Assembly (NCBI GenBank): GCA_027491355.1
Contig: JAIXWI010000019.1
Coordinates: 59,261-123,260, forward strand
Length of the DNA stretch: 64,000 nucleotides
Direction of reading: 5' to 3'
Source of the DNA: Bacteroidota bacterium
GTDB taxonomy: Bacteria; Bacteroidota; Bacteroidia; UKL13-3
Under the pieces are notes generated by a model. It saw only the letters and a program-made list of their open reading frames with translations. It was not told the DNA's origin and searched no databases. Positions 3,201 through 30,976 of the stretch are shown in pieces. The position numbers were made by a program, and so were the translations under genes. Positions within the stretch are counted from its first letter, which is position 1, and every line of letters begins with the position of its first letter.

Positions 3201-3755
3201 TCCTGCGGTTTGCATTTCAGCAGCGGTATACAGTATTTGAGATTTCCCTGATTTTTGATTTCCATCCAATACAAAATCGGCAATCTGACTGCCCAATAAA
3301 CCCATGCTTGCTTTGGTTTCGTTTTGAACCGAATTTACTTTAACTTCTTTTTGAGTAAAGACTTTATAATCGTAAACAGGTTTGCTGGTATACTTAAAAT
3401 TACTTCCACTAAAATTAGAAACCATGTAATTCAAATTGGTGGCTGCTACTGCTTCTATTTTAGTTGAATCAACCAAATAGGTATTGCAGCTATAATCCCA
3501 TTCGCCACAGCCTTGGTCACGGTTGGTTGAATTGGACACCAATGCATTTTTACAACGCATGGTGTACTTCAAAATAATTTTCTCAAAACTCAAATTTGAA
3601 TCTGGCAATTGCACGGCAGTATCTCTTGTTGCTGATGCAAAATGGAATACTTTTACTTTGAGGGTATCACCAGTTTGTTGGGCGAAGGTATACAGTGAAA
3701 ATAAACACAATAAAACTAGGCTAAAAAAGCTAACTATTCTTTTCATAAATCGCAT
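267..3755 (-). CDS. Secreted PNGase F-like / LamG-domain protein with T9SS C-terminal sorting domain
   Basis: Signal peptide; N-terminal RDQGCGEWDYSCNTYL motif typical of peptide-N-glycosidase F-like proteins; LamG-like central region; C-terminal SLYPNPATATFTVEG...GIYIVKLKKGGSVVQQKIHIQ typical of T9SS type A domains. Confidence 0.8.
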   Translation of the reverse strand: MRFMKRIVSFFSLVLLCLFSLYTFAQQTGDTLKVKVFHFASATRDTAVQLPDSNLSFEKIILKYTMRCKNALVSNSTNRDQGCGEWDYSCNTYLVDSTKIEAVAATNLNYMVSNFSGSNFKYTSKPVYDYKVFTQKEVKVNSVQNETKASMGLLGSQIADFVLDGNQKSGKSQILYTAAEMQTAGLIAGSINGMTLHVVNNGGQIQFLKVKAKWVSAYKWNLNAPEMSGFTEVYFSNYTFKNGENFLPFHTALTWDGSKDLLLEFSYTNSLPTTTVQLAAQLQQNQIGMHANNNYALDLMNQGFAKLDTALLGTISNEMSISFWAFGNAASMPITTTLLYGYANNPADRQLNIHLPHSNGNVYFDCGFSGGYDRVNKVAVPAEQAGRWNHWAFTKNVKNGSMKIYLNGTLWTAGNSKARAIKLLQILLGKDQNGNNNYKGKITELAIYSKELADTTISRWMNKTIDATHPNYANLVAYYQMNDFGSNAILNSVTGNSVIGDHLLWSFERGESLNRNFVAAYTKPALTLHQGTFQTTVVTVKVLDSLQRKPSLVYKYSIRSKEGMMPLASDDVLLDTTIVGITNAAPSMVFDATSGNRVDSIANAVEGEFTIVNMTYYKRYPFYNELLSFVTPYGIGVDFGVEGKTWYFDMTDFTPLFKGNKRFLMALGGQNQEQIDMEYLFVVGTPPRPVLEFNQLWQGTNRAGAASIASINNDTRFTTLNITPHKDASQFKLRSTITGHGTEGEFENNGGTVNHMINIEGGESEFYWKVVQECGSNPVFPQGGTWVYDRQGWCPGEASLTMQQDLTPYLTPGKSTTIDYNTSAPQNAAGDYRFHVAHQLVSYGVPNFQTDARINDVLQPSTKIAYARKNPTCTKPKIVVQNTGSSTIQQLKIDYWVNQSSNKQSYTWTGSLLSMDMVTIELPIANLWLEGVQKNGNLFHAQIVQVNQQIDQYAFNNHAMSSFNSPIVLPGKFTLEIRSNNVPSDNVVKIIDENEQVIDERSLDKANTVFNFDYQLGGCYKLLIEDRGGDGLSWWANTAQGTGYAKIKNANGTAIRTLQSDFGNSIELAFTTDWVLNVEDNQYTQFFSLYPNPATATFTVEGKQIEGAQLALINMLGQTVFDVAALSSNKNVFTTNDLDAGIYIVKLKKGGSVVQQKIHIQH

Positions 3756-3855
3756 TCAATGTCATCAAATATAACACAGAACTGAAAAAAAATACTGCCA
3801 TTTTTGACAACTAACACAAAATCTAATAAACAGTTACGTGAAGTTAAAAAAACAA

Positions 3856-3881
3856 AAAACCTCGAATTTCTTCGAGGTTTT
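3856..3881 (-). terminator. Rho-independent terminator downstream of tRNA-Val
   Basis: AACCTCGAA-TTTC-TTCGAGGTT perfect 9-bp stem; on the minus strand it is followed by a T-rich run. Confidence 0.7.
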
Positions 3882-3886
3882 GTTTG

Positions 3887-3961
3887 TGGAGGCACATGGA
3901 TTCGAACCAAGGACCCTCTGCTTGTAAGGCAGATGCTCTGAACCAGCTGAGCTATGCCTCC
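3887..3961 (-). tRNA. tRNA-Val(TAC)
   Basis: Minus strand GGAGGCATAGCTCAGCTGGTTCAGAGCATCTGCCTTACAAGCAGAGGGTCCTTGGTTCGAATCCATGTGCCTCCA: full cloverleaf, anticodon loop CTTACAA, GGTTCGAATCC T-arm. Confidence 0.95.
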
Positions 3962-4070
3962 CTAAGGGGAGTGCAAATATAAAAAAGGAAATTGGATTAC
4001 AAATACTTTTATAAAAATATTTTAAATAAAATTGAACCAACTCTCCTAAACAATACAAAGTCAACTACAT

Positions 4071-4106
4071 AAAAAAGGGATGTCAATACTGACATCCCTT
4101 TTTTAT
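4071..4106 (-). terminator. Hairpin terminator at the 3' end of gldN (possibly bidirectional)
   Basis: AAAAAAGGGATGTC-AATACT-GACATCCCTTTTTT perfect inverted repeat with A/T tracts. Confidence 0.75.
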
Positions 4107-4119
4107 AGTTTAAATGAGT

Positions 4120-4965
4120 TTAGTATTCCCACAAATCATGCTCCATCTCAAACAATTCATTCTTAATGCGCTCGCCTTCTAACAAAGCAGCAACTCCATT
4201 GTCTCTGAATTCTTCGTATTCTCTGATGTACATGTCGTGCTGGTTCGCTTCTTTGGTTACATAGCTCGAGAACATGCGTTGCTCAAACCAATCATCATAA
4301 GAAATACGTGCAGCATCGTTTTGTCTATTGAACAATTCGTAATTAACAGCTATATGTCTGAAATCTGTTTCAGGACTGCCATCTTTTGCATGGTATTTCA
4401 ATACACATAAATCTTGTTCAGGCAAATCATTGCCCTTGATTTTTGGTGTGTAACGAGGCGCAATAGATATGATTCTAACAAACATTTGAGAATGCTTCTT
4501 GTCAAAAATCCAATCTTCTACAATTCTGAATTTTTGAATTCTCAATTCTGGTATCATTGGGTTTACAATGGTATCAGGTTTGGTCAAGGACGGATCATTC
4601 GGATCAATTGGGGTTTCGATGTAATCTGTATCAGTACCCAATGTCATGAAATACTCAATAGACATTTGTGAAGTCAATGAATCGTTTCTGTAAGGAATCA
4701 ATTTACCTTCCTTCACTGCATTGTAAACAATGACACTCAAAGGATTTTTAGGCCAAGCCATAGGCTGGTTTTGCTTTTCTCTTACATCAATCACCCTCAC
4801 AACACGTTTGGCAAACTTCACATCTGCCTCTCTTAAATAAGGCCAAGCAATGACTTTACGTTCTTGCACAGCTTGACGGTTGTAGATGAAATCATCGTAC
4901 ACTCCTTGCGCAAAGCTTCCAAAGCTCAAGAAACTGAATAGGAGGATGATTATTGACTTCTTCAT
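4120..4965 (-). CDS. gldN: Gliding motility / T9SS protein GldN (PorN)
   Basis: Signal peptide plus VYDDFIYNRQAVQERKVIAWPYLREADV...; last gene after gldM. Confidence 0.9.
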   Translation of the reverse strand: MKKSIIILLFSFLSFGSFAQGVYDDFIYNRQAVQERKVIAWPYLREADVKFAKRVVRVIDVREKQNQPMAWPKNPLSVIVYNAVKEGKLIPYRNDSLTSQMSIEYFMTLGTDTDYIETPIDPNDPSLTKPDTIVNPMIPELRIQKFRIVEDWIFDKKHSQMFVRIISIAPRYTPKIKGNDLPEQDLCVLKYHAKDGSPETDFRHIAVNYELFNRQNDAARISYDDWFEQRMFSSYVTKEANQHDMYIREYEEFRDNGVAALLEGERIKNELFEMEHDLWEY

Positions 4966-24002: not shown

Positions 24003-25244
24003 ATGAACATTCAAGATATCAAACAAAGATTTGAGATTATAGGAAATTCACCCTTGTTAAACATTGCATTGGAAACAGCTGTTAAAGTTGCTGCCACAGA
24101 CATTACGGTATTAATCAATGGTGAAAGTGGAGTTGGGAAAGAAGCGTTTTCAAAAATCATTCACTCATTAAGTCATCGCAAACATGGGCCATTCATTGCA
24201 GTAAACTGTGGTGCAATTCCTGAAGGCACCATCGACTCAGAATTATTTGGCCATGAAAAAGGATCATTTACTGGTGCACACGAAACAAGAAAAGGCTATT
24301 TTGAAACAGTTAACGGAGGCACCATTTTTTTAGATGAAGTAGGAGAACTACCGCTTGAAACCCAAGCACGTTTATTACGGGTTTTAGAGAGTGGAGAATT
24401 CATTAAAGTAGGTTCTAGCAAAGCACAAAAAACAGATGTTAGGGTTGTAGCTGCAACCAACAAAGATTTGCTCGATTTATCCATGACTGGTAAATTTAGA
24501 GAAGATTTGTATTACCGACTTTCAACTGTTCCAATTAAGGTGCCACCATTGAGAGAACGTAAAGAAGACATCAACTTATTGTTTAGAAAATTCTCTGCAG
24601 ACTTTGCAGAAAAGTACCATTCTAAACCTGTCATACTTGAACCAGATGCACTTCAACTATTGGTTAATTTTAGATGGCCAGGAAACATCCGACAATTGAA
24701 AAACATTGCTGAGCAGTTGTCTGTATTAGATGAAGATAAAATAGTCAATGGCGCCGAATTAAAAAGAGTACTTCCACCAGAGAAAACAGGTTTACCAATG
24801 GTTTTAGGCAATTTCAACAACGAAATGCAACTGAGTGAAAGAGACATCATGTACAAATTTCTACTCGATCTCCGAAAAGACCTTTCTGATTTAAAAGGGG
24901 TAGTTTATGACATGATGCAAAACAGAGAGCACTTTGGTAATGTTCCGGTTAATGCCAACCCTATTTTTAGTGCAAACGAACTCAATACTGTTCACCATAC
25001 AACACCTGTTACACCTACCGTAGTACAAATCAATCCTGGAACTAACTTGGTAAAATCGGGTGATTACATCGATATCACAGAAGCCAATATGGAACCAGAA
25101 TCATTGTCATTGGAGCAAAAAGAAATTGAATTGATAAAAAAATCACTGGATAAACACAATGGCAAACGCAAGAAAGCTGCACAAGAATTGGGTATTTCGG
25201 AGCGAACGCTATACCGAAAAATCAAACAATATGATTTGGAATAG
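24003..25244 (+). CDS. Sigma-54-dependent Fis-family transcriptional regulator (AAA+ and HTH, no receiver domain)
   Basis: GESGVGKEAFSKIIH, FGHEKGSFTGAHETRKGYFE, GGTIFLDEVGELPLETQARLLRVLE, C-terminal KKAAQELGISERTLYRKIKQYDL. Confidence 0.93.
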   Translation: MNIQDIKQRFEIIGNSPLLNIALETAVKVAATDITVLINGESGVGKEAFSKIIHSLSHRKHGPFIAVNCGAIPEGTIDSELFGHEKGSFTGAHETRKGYFETVNGGTIFLDEVGELPLETQARLLRVLESGEFIKVGSSKAQKTDVRVVAATNKDLLDLSMTGKFREDLYYRLSTVPIKVPPLRERKEDINLLFRKFSADFAEKYHSKPVILEPDALQLLVNFRWPGNIRQLKNIAEQLSVLDEDKIVNGAELKRVLPPEKTGLPMVLGNFNNEMQLSERDIMYKFLLDLRKDLSDLKGVVYDMMQNREHFGNVPVNANPIFSANELNTVHHTTPVTPTVVQINPGTNLVKSGDYIDITEANMEPESLSLEQKEIELIKKSLDKHNGKRKKAAQELGISERTLYRKIKQYDLE

Positions 25245-25335
25245 GTAATTGGTTTGGAGAACTTATTTAGTTGTGTGTGAGTTATTGGTTTGATAGTTGT
25301 TGCTCAAGAATTGTCAATCGGTTGTTGTTTAATTG

Positions 25336-26107
25336 GAACATCCGATTGATATTGGTTTAGGGATGAGATTTTGAATAGTCTTGAGTGAATGGTCGTGTGA
25401 GAGTTTTGAATTTGATTCTCCCTTTTTTCGAAAAACTAAATTGCTGCTTTTGAACGGTAATTGGCTAAAAGTCATTTTCCGTACCTTTTTTCTTGATAAA
25501 AAAGGTACCCCAAAAATCAAGACCTCCGCCAATCGGCTTAAAATCTATCTGCGTCCTTGTTCTCCACGCGCATAACGCAGCAAGTCAATACTGTTTCTGC
25601 TTGTTGTTTTTTGTTAATTGCTGTCGGGATTCGCTTGCTGCAGGCTTACCCACAACAAGTACTGGTGATTTTGTGCGCCGATTGACAATGGTCGATTCAT
25701 TCGAACGAGATTGGTTTTGGGATGAGATTTGAATAGTCTTGTGTGAATGGTCGAGCCATAGTTTTGAATTTGATTCTCCCTTTTTTCAAGTTGAAAAATT
25801 CAAAAAACTAGTTTGCAGCTTTTGATCGGTAATTGGTTAAAAGTCATGTTTCGTACCTTTTTTCTTGATAAAAAAGGTACCCCAAAAATCAAGACCTCCG
25901 CCAATCGGCTTAAAATCTATCTGCGTCCTTGTTCTCCACGCGCATAACGCAGCAAGTCAATATTGGTTTCTGCTTGTTGTTTTTAGTTAATTGCTGTCGG
26001 GATTCGCTTGCTGCAGGCCTTCCCACAACAAGCACTGGTGATTTTGTGCGCCGATTGACAATGGTCGGAAAATCCGATTGGTATTTTCTTTTGGATGAGA
26101 TTTTTAG
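25336..26107. repeat. Left array: two ~370 bp direct repeats (copies A and B), each with hairpin and ~156 bp core
   Basis: The GTACCTTTTTTCTTGATAAAAAAGGTACC...ATCAAGACCTCCGCCAATCGGC...GCGCCGATTGACAATGGTCG block recurs 372 bp apart (25481 and 25853). Confidence 0.9.
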
Positions 26108-26187
26108 TGACTTCTTTAATTATAATTTGAATTTAAAAATCAAACATAAAATGACTCATTTATTTTGAAGATACTTTGAAAATAAAA

Positions 26188-29100
26188 TCAAAAACTTCGA
26201 ACAGCTCTAACTAAAAACCAACTAATATTGGGATTCTTTACATAATACCATGATACTTGACTACATACCGTTACTGCTATTGCTAATGTTTTATTATCTA
26301 TATTACTCTCTGAGGAAGACCAATAAGGTTGACCATATCCACAAGAAAGATCTATATAACTTCGATTGAGTACTAACTTTTTCAATTCTTGTTCACTTGG
26401 TAAATACCAATCGTCAAAACCATTTACAACTAAATCATTACAAGCTTTTGCTGCTGAATATTGACTGCATCCACTTACTATTAATGCTGTATTTGCTGCT
26501 CCAGTACCAATTGCTGTTGCTGTTCCCATACTTGTGCCATCACAACCCCAGCTATATCCACAGCCCCAATACTGACAACCATTTGCATTTACATTACAGT
26601 CATTAGGAGCTGCAATAATTCCATGTATTTTATTTGCATCATATCCCAAATCACCTGGTTCTAAGATGTAGGCAACTTTACCACCACCAAATACAGAACC
26701 AACAGTTAAGTTCTTGACTACTCTTGTAAACACACAAGTTTTTCCTCCAATTGCAATACTAAAACTTGCGGTGCCTGTAGTATTGGGTGTGCCTGAAATA
26801 GTTAGAACCAATGTGCCATTACCATTGTTCAAAGTGCCCGCTACAAGTGTTGCTATTAAACCAGATACGCCTGTAGAACTAATGATTCTAGAATAGTATG
26901 AAGCTCCATTGGCTCCAGTATAATTTAGAGTTACAGTAACATTACTGGCTGCAATACCATTGTATAAATTCCCTCCATTCGCTGTTGTATCATGTTGCAG
27001 GCTTTGAATTGAGGGGGTAAGTGAAGTGCAAGGTACATATGATGACACCCCACCACACACATACTCTGCCCATTTGCAATTACACAATTGGTCTTTGCAG
27101 AAATATCTTTGAGCTTGATTGGTTGTTGTGTTGGTGGTATCATTTCCTCCAAACAAGAATACCATGTTATTAGCTGTTTTGGCTTCTATGTTAGTTCTGT
27201 TGGTGTTTTGGGTATTGCTTTGTTGGTACCATGCATTGCTTGTAAAGTCAAATACATATACCTTGTTTGAGTTGGTATTGTTTGCTTGTTTGCCGCCAAA
27301 CACATACAATTTGTTGTCGTAATTGGTAGCACCCACTTGTGTCAATGCTACTGGCAAATCAGGCATGGCAGTCCAAGTATTGTTTGTTGGATTGTAAACC
27401 TCTACACTGCTTATAGGTTGGCTATTGTTATTTGTTCCGCCTATTTTGTATAGCTTGTTGTTATAAGCTACCAATCTGCTTTGAGTTGTATTTATAGTTG
27501 GATTGGCAAGTGCTGTATAGCTATTTGTTTGTGGGTTGTATTGAATGAAGGTATTTTGATTATTGTTGTAACCTAATACATAAATTTTGTTATTGATACT
27601 TGCTGTATACACACTGCTAGTTGAAGTACTTGTTTGGTTGGCTTTGTTCTGCCAAGTATTGCTAGCAATATCATAAGCTTCTGTTGTACCATTGGTATTG
27701 AAACAATACACTTTGCCATTGGCTTCGGCTAAGCCACATTCAATACAAGCTGTTGGTTTGTTTGCAATGGCCGTGTATTTTCTGTCATTTACATTGTACT
27801 TATGTGCATTGTTTGTATAGTTTTGGTTAAACAAATAAATATTAGAATAATAAGAAGTGGCCCTTACAAGGCTTTGTGCTGGTAAGTTTACGGTTGAAAC
27901 AAGTGTGTCGTTTGCGCAGATATTGGCGGCGGCTAAAGCCGCCGCCAAACTCCTATACGTTACACGTATGCTTTGGTCACTCGTAACATTTTTAAAAGTA
28001 TAAGAACTAGCAGTTGGTACTTGAACGCCGTTTACAATGACACTATCAATCCAATACCCTGAATTGGGTGTGAAAGTGTAGGTTTGGTTTGAACCTGGAT
28101 TAACTGAAATGGTTCCTGAAGGGCTGATGCTGCCGTTTGAAGATGATACAGAAACAATTTGGTTTTTAACATATACTGTAACACTGTCTATACAACTGCT
28201 GATTCCATTACTAACAGTACAATAATAAGTGGTGGTAGTACTTGGATTAACAGAAATAGATTCAGTAGTATCACCAGTTGACCAAAAATAACTTACATTA
28301 TCTTGTTTATATGAAGCTTCTACGTATAATCTTTTGAGAGTACCATAGCAGGGATCACCAAAAACAGAATTAGTTGCAGGTATAACTGCATTAGATTTTC
28401 CTATTAAATAATTTTCAACTACAGCTTTAGACAAACTATAATGACAACTTCCTGTTGAAAAGTTGCCACAACTGCCATTCGGTGTACCATAGCTTGCAAA
28501 ATTGATTTTTGAAAACACGGCACCTTGTGGTAGACTAAATGAAATTTGATTTCCTTCTTGCGCTGTTCGGCAAATTATACTAGAATTTGAAACACTAAGA
28601 TTTATAGTGTCTCCTTTAAATATCATTGTATCACTTATATCAATTTTAACATTTATAAGATTCACAAAAACACTGTCTATTCCAAAGCAAGAACCACTTG
28701 TAACTTTGCAACTAAACCAACCAGAATTATTTACATCGATATATGATTTATTTGAACCTGTACTCCATAAATAACTATCAAATGAATTATTTATAAATAA
28801 CATTTGACTACCTCCACAAGCATTTATTGTATCTTGTAAAATAAAATTATTAGTAAAATTTATACATGGGTTAATTCCTGTATACATTGCTACGATTTCT
28901 GACGGTGTTATGACCCGATTATAGATTGCAATATCATCAAGAATCCCTTTGAAATACCTACTATCTCTGTTATAAGCACCAATTGATGAAAAAGTTGCAG
29001 AACCAGTAAAAAAACTAAAATTTGGAGTAAGACTTGATGAATCTACAAGATGAGAATTAATATAAATTTTCACCTTATTCCCTTGTGAATATGTAAGTAC

Positions 29101-29571
29101 ACAATGATACCAACTATTATTGTTTATATATGCTCCTGGATTTACATAATGTAATCCATCAGAAAGTTTAACCCCTCCACTCAAATATTTTAACCCATTG
29201 TTTAAATTAAAATTAGACAATTCCCATTCCCTGCTTCCTTGATAGTATATTAATTGCTGTCCAGCGCTTAAATCATTTGAATTCAACCAAATTGAAATTG
29301 AAAATGAATTACTCGAAACCACATTTGGGATATTTATGCAATCATTCCCATCAAAACTGAATGCTTTATTTTGATAGCCATTTTTATCTGCTGTCAGAGA
29401 AGCCCCGTTGACTGTTCCATGATTCCCATTTCCACTTTCATCATTGGCATTGCCATTAAAAGGCCACCATGCTAATAAACCATTGGTAGGAATATATGAA
29501 GGGATATTTTGACTGCGAGAAATTGAGCTAATGAATAGCAACATCAAAAGTAGGTAGTTTTTATATTTCAT
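26188..29571 (-). CDS. Mosaic secreted surface protein: LamG, InlB-type repeat, Kelch-like repeats, DUF1566-like C-terminus
   Basis: Signal peptide; GLLAWWPFNGNANDESGNGNHGTVNGA (LamG); Kelch-like YNNKLYKIGGTNNNSQPISSVEVYNPTNNTWTAMPDLP; C-terminal DDWYLPSEQELKKL...YWSSSES...FLVRAVRSF. Confidence 0.8.
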   Translation of the reverse strand: MKYKNYLLLMLLFISSISRSQNIPSYIPTNGLLAWWPFNGNANDESGNGNHGTVNGASLTADKNGYQNKAFSFDGNDCINIPNVVSSNSFSISIWLNSNDLSAGQQLIYYQGSREWELSNFNLNNGLKYLSGGVKLSDGLHYVNPGAYINNNSWYHCVLTYSQGNKVKIYINSHLVDSSSLTPNFSFFTGSATFSSIGAYNRDSRYFKGILDDIAIYNRVITPSEIVAMYTGINPCINFTNNFILQDTINACGGSQMLFINNSFDSYLWSTGSNKSYIDVNNSGWFSCKVTSGSCFGIDSVFVNLINVKIDISDTMIFKGDTINLSVSNSSIICRTAQEGNQISFSLPQGAVFSKINFASYGTPNGSCGNFSTGSCHYSLSKAVVENYLIGKSNAVIPATNSVFGDPCYGTLKRLYVEASYKQDNVSYFWSTGDTTESISVNPSTTTTYYCTVSNGISSCIDSVTVYVKNQIVSVSSSNGSISPSGTISVNPGSNQTYTFTPNSGYWIDSVIVNGVQVPTASSYTFKNVTSDQSIRVTYRSLAAALAAANICANDTLVSTVNLPAQSLVRATSYYSNIYLFNQNYTNNAHKYNVNDRKYTAIANKPTACIECGLAEANGKVYCFNTNGTTEAYDIASNTWQNKANQTSTSTSSVYTASINNKIYVLGYNNNQNTFIQYNPQTNSYTALANPTINTTQSRLVAYNNKLYKIGGTNNNSQPISSVEVYNPTNNTWTAMPDLPVALTQVGATNYDNKLYVFGGKQANNTNSNKVYVFDFTSNAWYQQSNTQNTNRTNIEAKTANNMVFLFGGNDTTNTTTNQAQRYFCKDQLCNCKWAEYVCGGVSSYVPCTSLTPSIQSLQHDTTANGGNLYNGIAASNVTVTLNYTGANGASYYSRIISSTGVSGLIATLVAGTLNNGNGTLVLTISGTPNTTGTASFSIAIGGKTCVFTRVVKNLTVGSVFGGGKVAYILEPGDLGYDANKIHGIIAAPNDCNVNANGCQYWGCGYSWGCDGTSMGTATAIGTGAANTALIVSGCSQYSAAKACNDLVVNGFDDWYLPSEQELKKLVLNRSYIDLSCGYGQPYWSSSESNIDNKTLAIAVTVCSQVSWYYVKNPNISWFLVRAVRSF

Positions 29572-29761
29572 ATTTAAAATTAACTATTATTTAAAATATA
29601 TTAATTGACACGAATATAGTATTATTATTATTTTGTTATTTTATTGGGCAAATATGAACTGGTATTTTCTAATCAGTGTTAATCAGATTTATTCACTATA
29701 ATATTTATAACAATTATTGAGAGTGTATTTATTGGTCCGTTTAAGTTTCAGTTAATAGTCT

Positions 29762-30390
29762 TTTGATTCTCCCTTTTTTCAAGTTGAAAAATTCAAAAAA
29801 CTAGTTTGCTGCTTTTGAACGGTAATTGGTTAAAAGTCATTTTCCATACCTTTTTTCTTGATAAAAAAGGTACCCCAAAAATCAAGACCTCCGCCAATCG
29901 GCTTAAAATCTATCTGCGTCCTTGTTCTCCACGCGTCTGACGCAGCAATCTAAATTTCTGTTAATATTGAGCTATGGCTTGTTGCTTTGGCATTCGCTTG
30001 CTGCAGGCCTTCCCCACATCAAGTACTGGTGATTTTGTGCGCCGATTGACAATGGTCGGAACATCCGATTGATATCTTCTTTTGGATGAGATTTTAATTA
30101 GTCTTGCGTGAATGGTCGTTTGAGAGTTTTGAATTTGATTATCTCTTTTTTTGATAAAATTTTAAAAAAAGAGTTTGCTGCTTTTGAACGGGAATTGGTT
30201 AAAAGTCATGTTTTCGTACCTTTTTTCTTGATAAAAAAGGTACCCCAAAAATCAAGACCTCCGCCAATGGTCGGGGGCTTCCGAAAGATATTTTCTTTTG
30301 TGATGAGATTTTGAATAGTCTTGAGTGAATGGTCGTTTGAGATTTTTTGAATTTGATTATCCTTTTTTTTTGATAAAAAGGAAGCAAAAA
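29762..30390. repeat. Right array: repeat copies C (full core), D (core absent) and a degenerate remnant E
   Basis: Same block as the left array at 29846 and 30216 (370 bp apart). D reads CCGCCAATGGTCGG where A-C have the core. E is a degraded CCTTTTTTTTTGATAAAAAGGAAGCAAAAAATGATG. Confidence 0.9.
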
Positions 30391-30397
30391 ATGATGC

Positions 30398-30976
30398 TTA
30401 TTCTTTCGCGCCCAGATACGCTTGCGCAATTTCTTCTAATTCTTGATACCAGGCTTTGCCGTATTTGCGTTCGAGGGCTGTTTGTAAAAAACGGTAAACA
30501 GGAACACCTTCCTTCTTACCGAGTTCACAAGCATCTTTGCAAATGCTCCATTGGTGGTAATTGAGGCCCTCGAAATCGCCAATTTTAATGGCTCTGATAG
30601 GATACAAATGACAAGAAATTGGTTTTTGAAAATGGGTATCCCCTGCTTTCCATGCTTGTTCAATGCCACAGTGCAATTGACCATTGGCATCTCGGTTGAC
30701 AAAATTGCATTCACCTGTTGGCAAACAAGTGGTCACCCATTCATCGTCTTCATCTTTTTCTACAAAACCTCTTTTTTGAATATCTGCAATAGACTCAGCA
30801 GTTAAAAAAGGTTTTATTTTAGGCCATTCTTGCTTTAAAATTTCAACTTCTTCTGCCAAAACTGGCGCACCCGCATCTCCTTCTACACAACAAGCTCCTT
30901 TACATTTATTGAGGTTACAGATGAATTGTTTTTCGAAAATATCTTCAGAAATGAGCTGTTCGCCTAGAATTATCAT
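30398..30976 (-). CDS. DUF3109-type Cys-rich protein
   Basis: CNLNKCKGACCVEGDAGAPVL, CLPTGECNFVNRDANGQLHCGIEQA, KPISCHLYPIRAI. Confidence 0.85.
   Translation of the reverse strand: MIILGEQLISEDIFEKQFICNLNKCKGACCVEGDAGAPVLAEEVEILKQEWPKIKPFLTAESIADIQKRGFVEKDEDDEWVTTCLPTGECNFVNRDANGQLHCGIEQAWKAGDTHFQKPISCHLYPIRAIKIGDFEGLNYHQWSICKDACELGKKEGVPVYRFLQTALERKYGKAWYQELEEIAQAYLGAKE

Follow-up and report, generated by a model that had tools for sequence, protein, structure and literature searches.

Hairpins that are bracketed at their foot by short direct repeats are a classical substrate for precise-excision slippage, which leaves one of the two repeats in place. REP repeats such as those of the GTAG and CGTC families are single hairpins of 20-40 bp that are tagged by the tetranucleotide GTAG or CGTC (PMC3733652). 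Here we compare these systems to a repeat of about 370 bp that is present in four copies (A to D) in the window, as we call the whole stretch of 64,000 nt of Bacteroidota DNA that was analysed; the genome containing it is a draft of 2.44 Mb in 44 contigs. We consider it probable, as a joint statement, that this repeat represents, in one lineage, a type of structured intergenic repeat recurring across the Bacteroidota and that copy D is best explained by deletion of the core between two 4-bp CAATs at the foot of a hairpin.

Copies A, B and C all contain a core that is flanked by CAAT tetramers, at 25530-25533 and 25686-25689 in A (core of 156 bp), at 25902-25905 and 26059-26062 in B (157 bp), and at 29895-29898 and 30050-30053 in C (155 bp). 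The direct repeat bracketing the core comprises exactly these 4 bp and extends no further. The D junction (30244-30281, + strand) reads CCCAAAAATCAAGACCTCCGC-CAAT-GGTCGG with a single CAAT at 30265-30268, and equals A, B and C minus the core and one CAAT. The core positions, core lengths (155-157 bp) and CAAT flanks given in a preliminary description of this DNA were exact to the base, and its account of D as a unit that lacks the core and one CAAT was confirmed by the sequence. The inverted repeats it had placed at the core ends (CAATCGGC..AAAATC and GATTTT..GCCGATTG) and the inner inverted pair GCAGCAAG / CTTGCTGC were also there, and most of the 16 units found genome-wide show little or no variation in them. 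Beyond what had been described, the unit starts with an additional hairpin, GTACCTTTTTT-CTTGAT-AAAAAAGGTAC, designated P1.

The repeat of about 370 bp is structured, and the 156-base core forms its main stem, P2. A full unit begins with the 5' hairpin P1 with the loop CTTGAY, continues with an A-rich linker and the complementary sequence RTCAAG, and P2 follows directly. All features of the four units lie on the + strand. In unit A, P1 spans 25481-25509 with the loop CTTGAT at 25492-25497, and both its stem and its loop covary across the phylum; the ATCAAG complementary to the P1 loop is at 25516-25521, and P2, counted as the core with both CAATs, at 25530-25689. Unit B has P1 at 25853-25881 (loop CTTGAT at 25864-25869) and P2 at 25902-26062, unit C has P1 at 29847-29874 and P2 at 29895-30053, and P1 of unit D is found at 30216-30244. 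When folded as a single strand, the core forms a long stem with the CAATCGGC/GCCGATTG pair as its foot, and it folds better than shuffled sequences (z -2.25). The terminal inverted repeats of the core are thus the foot of P2. An alignment of the copies for conservation of terminal inverted repeats, a check proposed in the preliminary description, showed conserved ends; the stem that they form belongs to the repeat in distant lineages as well.

In its own genome, the repeat occurs as 16 complete core-bearing units and about 10 further units that are cut by contig ends, distributed over 12 contigs. Many of the units are arranged in tandem with a spacing of about 370 bp. Matches to the repeat elsewhere in this genome exceeded chance by a wide margin (E values as low as 1e-229). 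The view of the whole unit as an interspersed repeat was right. The draft assembly breaks at the repeats (12 contig ends), and the array structure may be incomplete. Over the 16 units the core shows hardly any variation at its ends but does vary in its interior; one unit (C16_413) has the same core ends and an unrelated interior. A search of the genome revealed no core outside the unit, and the D junction, when up to 3 mismatches were allowed, was matched in four congeneric genomes by D alone.

At least eight families of the Bacteroidota have repeats built in this way but with P2 sequences unrelated to the one here, and diverged elements of this architecture are present in other genera of the own family. 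A pattern search detected it in 42 of 393 Bacteroidota genomes, while the reversed pattern as a control gave one match; a few single matches in this search (G239, G259, G354) look like chance. In one rich family 27 of 58 genomes were positive, with no match to the reversed pattern. The hairpin P1, the loop CTTGA followed by Y, the A-rich linker, R followed by TCAAG, and a long stem P2 are invariant across lineages, and the P2 sequences themselves are unrelated between lineages.

The pairing between the P1 loop and the linker was supported by covariation. The variable loop-linker pair (T-A, C-G or A-T, also within single genomes, e.g., G419) was complementary in 57 of 61 distinct sequences from seven families, which was reached in 0 of 100,000 permutations. 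For the P1 stem and the loop-linker pairing together, 97.2% of the cells were paired versus 87.2% in shuffles, and 56 double changes were counted versus 17 in shuffles (0/500); this signal collapsed when the alignment was shifted by one column. The inner two pairs of P1 vary between GC, UA and CG with the partners kept. For P2, an alignment of 11 sequences from two genera (A2) showed 8 pairs changed on both sides, and at 31 of 58 loci the stem was more self-complementary than 95 or more out of 100 shuffled sequences (mean -19.5 versus -14.4 kcal/mol). The loop-linker pairing is pseudoknot-like and may act in RNA, in single-stranded DNA, or as an inverted-repeat site for a protein.

Several arrangements of the element were seen in other genomes. 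In G419, a member of another family, elements form tail-to-tail inverted pairs about 300-440 bp apart (C56:50823/51118, C63:29511/29924, C72:25172/25610). The complete chromosome of G158 has a clustered array of five copies in the same orientation within 6 kb (C1:1281040-1286844). Two viral contigs from IMG/VR (L303, L304) carry the general P1-linker motif and may be proviral or mis-binned; phages or plasmids carrying the unit were not found.

All 62 examined loci were intergenic according to a crude ORF caller, although some overlap with short ORFs that are spurious. The region from 25244 to 30398 of the window, between a gene for a sigma-54 type regulator to the left of A (24003-25244, + strand) and a conserved gene for a protein of 192 aa to the right of D (30398-30976, - strand), which served as anchor of the orthologous comparison, is a hot spot. 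Here it comprises A-B, a surface-type gene with LamG, SUEL lectin, Kelch and weak Lcl_C domains (26188-29571, - strand), and C-D. Two sister species lack the surface-type gene at the orthologous place. In two sister species the hot spot (L239, L251, L252) holds what by eye is an apparent Fic gene with its partner, together with repeat remnants. Kelch/LamG paralogues often share contigs with the repeat, which then lies 3' of the gene and antisense to it (L033, L037, L045, L253, L254, L255, L258). Despite several such co-locations, a cassette role together with Kelch-type genes was dismissed, as other arrays adjoin unrelated genes. At L263 (about 3293-4888 of G000:C1), the gene beside the array contains a run of N, either a gap or masked sequence.

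The unit is present in two sister species (G002 and G003) but not in G001 of the same genus. At three fixed positions, the units of G002 and G003 additionally contain small hairpins, CCTGATAAGC..GCTTCATCAGG. These had initially seemed to be independent, mobile REP hairpins at CAAT, but they are confined to units: no small hairpin was found outside units in the two genomes. Because they occur nowhere else there, we regard them as internal growth of the unit and not as free elements. Five units of G002 and G003 (L158, L163, L165, L169, L172) lack the core, with junctions different from that of D, and have copies of the small hairpin in its place. The same small hairpins are found on both sides of the core in filled units (L164), which points to recombination or slippage between them as the process that removes the core. 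In another genus than that of D, an orthologous site with flanks of 95-97% identity is intact in G058 (L086), while G060 (L085) is missing 198 bp between TTACAA repeats and thereby most of P2. Loss of the core is therefore recurrent and takes more than one route.

As lineages far apart share P2 as part of the architecture, the filled state is ancestral and D is derived. In G002 and G003, the place orthologous to D holds only a decayed right-hand remnant (..GCTTGAAACAATGGTTGG..; ..GCTTG.AACAATGGT.GG..), a hint that this place formerly had a core. Most likely D did once have the hairpin and lost it through a deletion between short repeats. The P2 hairpin sits between CAAT repeats at its own foot, and in the simplest mechanism template slippage past the extruded hairpin would delete the core and leave one CAAT. 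We infer slippage at CAAT from the geometry of D, because D is without an exact counterpart and the junctions of the core-less units in the sister species are different. The number of units would change through recombination between repeats, and the whole unit may spread as a non-autonomous element by means of some enzyme.

CAAT at the ends of the insert would also fit insertion at CAAT. The preliminary description had labelled the core as MITE/REPIN-like and had offered two alternatives for D, non-autonomous insertion with a CAAT duplication or deletion across the CAATs, of which our results favour the latter and not the former. A non-autonomous IS200/IS605-like or RAYT-driven element inserted 3' of CAAT, with D as the original empty site, would account for the exact filled/empty geometry, one CAAT at each end being the expected outcome if an element of IS200/IS605 type inserts without duplicating its target, and at L068 of a sister species a block of small hairpins is inserted after CAAT and itself ends in CAAT. 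Yet the core was always inside the unit, as the small hairpins were, no other empty site with the CAAT junction accompanied D in the four congeneric genomes, and other families, too, have the P2 stem within the architecture. The cognate transposase with matching ends that had been proposed as a check was not found either. The only Y1_Tnp of the own genome is of the IS200 type (76.3 bits for IS200 versus 30.5 for REP_Tyr_transpos with a cut-off of 80); its flanks are unrelated to the repeat, no transposase locus carries the repeat, and a RAYT-class gene was not found in this genome. Among 20 genomes tested, Y1_Tnp was absent from the carriers G181 and G377 and also from G003, which is only 79% complete. 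An insertion of the core as an IS200/IS605 or RAYT element is strongly disfavoured, and we rate this origin of D as very improbable. The MITE/REPIN label for the core was thus not upheld.

Mobility may instead concern the whole unit, which we consider plausible from sequence comparison. If the unit were processed as a single strand with the P1 loop CTTG^AT as nick site, the tandem arrays of about 370 bp would be rolling-circle products. We take the loop to resemble the nick sequence of the rolling-circle origins of phiX174 and pC194, CTTGA is constant while neighbouring positions vary, and at one orthologous site G003 has a complete element and G002 does not (473 versus 33 bp). Against this, the difference between G002 and G003 is bounded by another repeated motif, GAGCGGAGCCGAAGCC, and may have arisen by recombination, and the search for HUH families, which covered Y1_Tnp and Y2_Tnp, found IS91-type Y2_Tnp in 0 of 19 carriers and only in the non-carrier G001. 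Y1 and Y2 transposases do not track the repeat, and RAYT/IS200 and IS91 enzymes are unsupported as drivers. We regard the nicking model as doubtful. Structured RNA, for example a 3'-UTR or regulatory element of which D would be a broken copy, is unlikely, if somewhat less so. The covariation of P1 and the loop-linker pairing, the folding of whole elements with z of about -4, the intergenic placement, and the P2 side facing a gene 3' end in the own genome (10 of the 11 loci that could be read, hand tabulation) would all agree with an RNA. The raw folding energy even favoured the bottom strand at 48 of 56 loci, but an RNA of the bottom strand was discarded when this difference vanished with shuffled controls: the z-scores of the two strands do not differ (-3.99 versus -4.11, p = 0.45), so the raw difference is compositional. 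Moreover, orientation relative to genes is mixed across the phylum (22 -E-, 13 +E+, 12 +E-, 9 -E+), variable pairs show almost no G-U intermediates (only 1 GU cell), copy number is high and variable, and in Rfam 15 no family scored at or near the gathering score.

The favoured reading, core deletion in D within a phylum-wide repeat, makes the empty/filled pair a textbook hairpin deletion of little consequence and D itself ordinary. The interesting part is the phylum-wide repeat with its pseudoknot-like pairing, in which the covarying loop and linker provide a precise handle for searching whole genomes and for assaying nicking or binding. Assemblies break at the repeat, and at the studied locus it goes along with variable gene content. 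It is a tentative idea that such repeats form a phylum-wide class of non-coding mobile elements defined by structure, in which a CTTGA-loop P1 pairs with RTCAAG beside a freely evolving main stem and which might be spread by a single-strand nuclease recognising the pseudoknot-like fold. A search of the open literature by sequence motif gave no match, and absence there and from Rfam does not prove novelty; the repeat seems to belong to a family that is defined by structure and spans a major phylum of bacteria, and we did not find this family under any name in either source.

Like REPs, the repeat is intergenic, multi-copy and palindromic and has no coding capacity, and like the CGTC REPs it appears to be without a dedicated transposase (PMC3733652). 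It differs from them by its length of about 200-370 bp, two ordered stems, the covarying loop-linker pairing and the RTCAAG before P2, and by unit size and RTCAAG foot it falls outside the hairpins of 20-40 bp with a GTAG or CGTC foot. With REPINs and their RAYTs it shares dispersed inverted-repeat DNA, and dependence on an enzyme acting in trans is conceivable; unlike in that system, no RAYT-class gene was found in the own genome and carriers without any Y1_Tnp exist. IS200/IS605 elements and MITEs derived from them also have subterminal hairpins and short sequences pairing near hairpins, and the CAAT geometry of D resembles an excision, whereas the core never occurs alone and no transposase locus has matching ends. 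The closest likeness of D is to direct-repeat deletion at the foot of a palindrome, in which a long hairpin within short direct repeats is lost and one repeat is left: D kept one of the two repeats flanking a long inverted repeat, it fits this process, and nothing notable differs.
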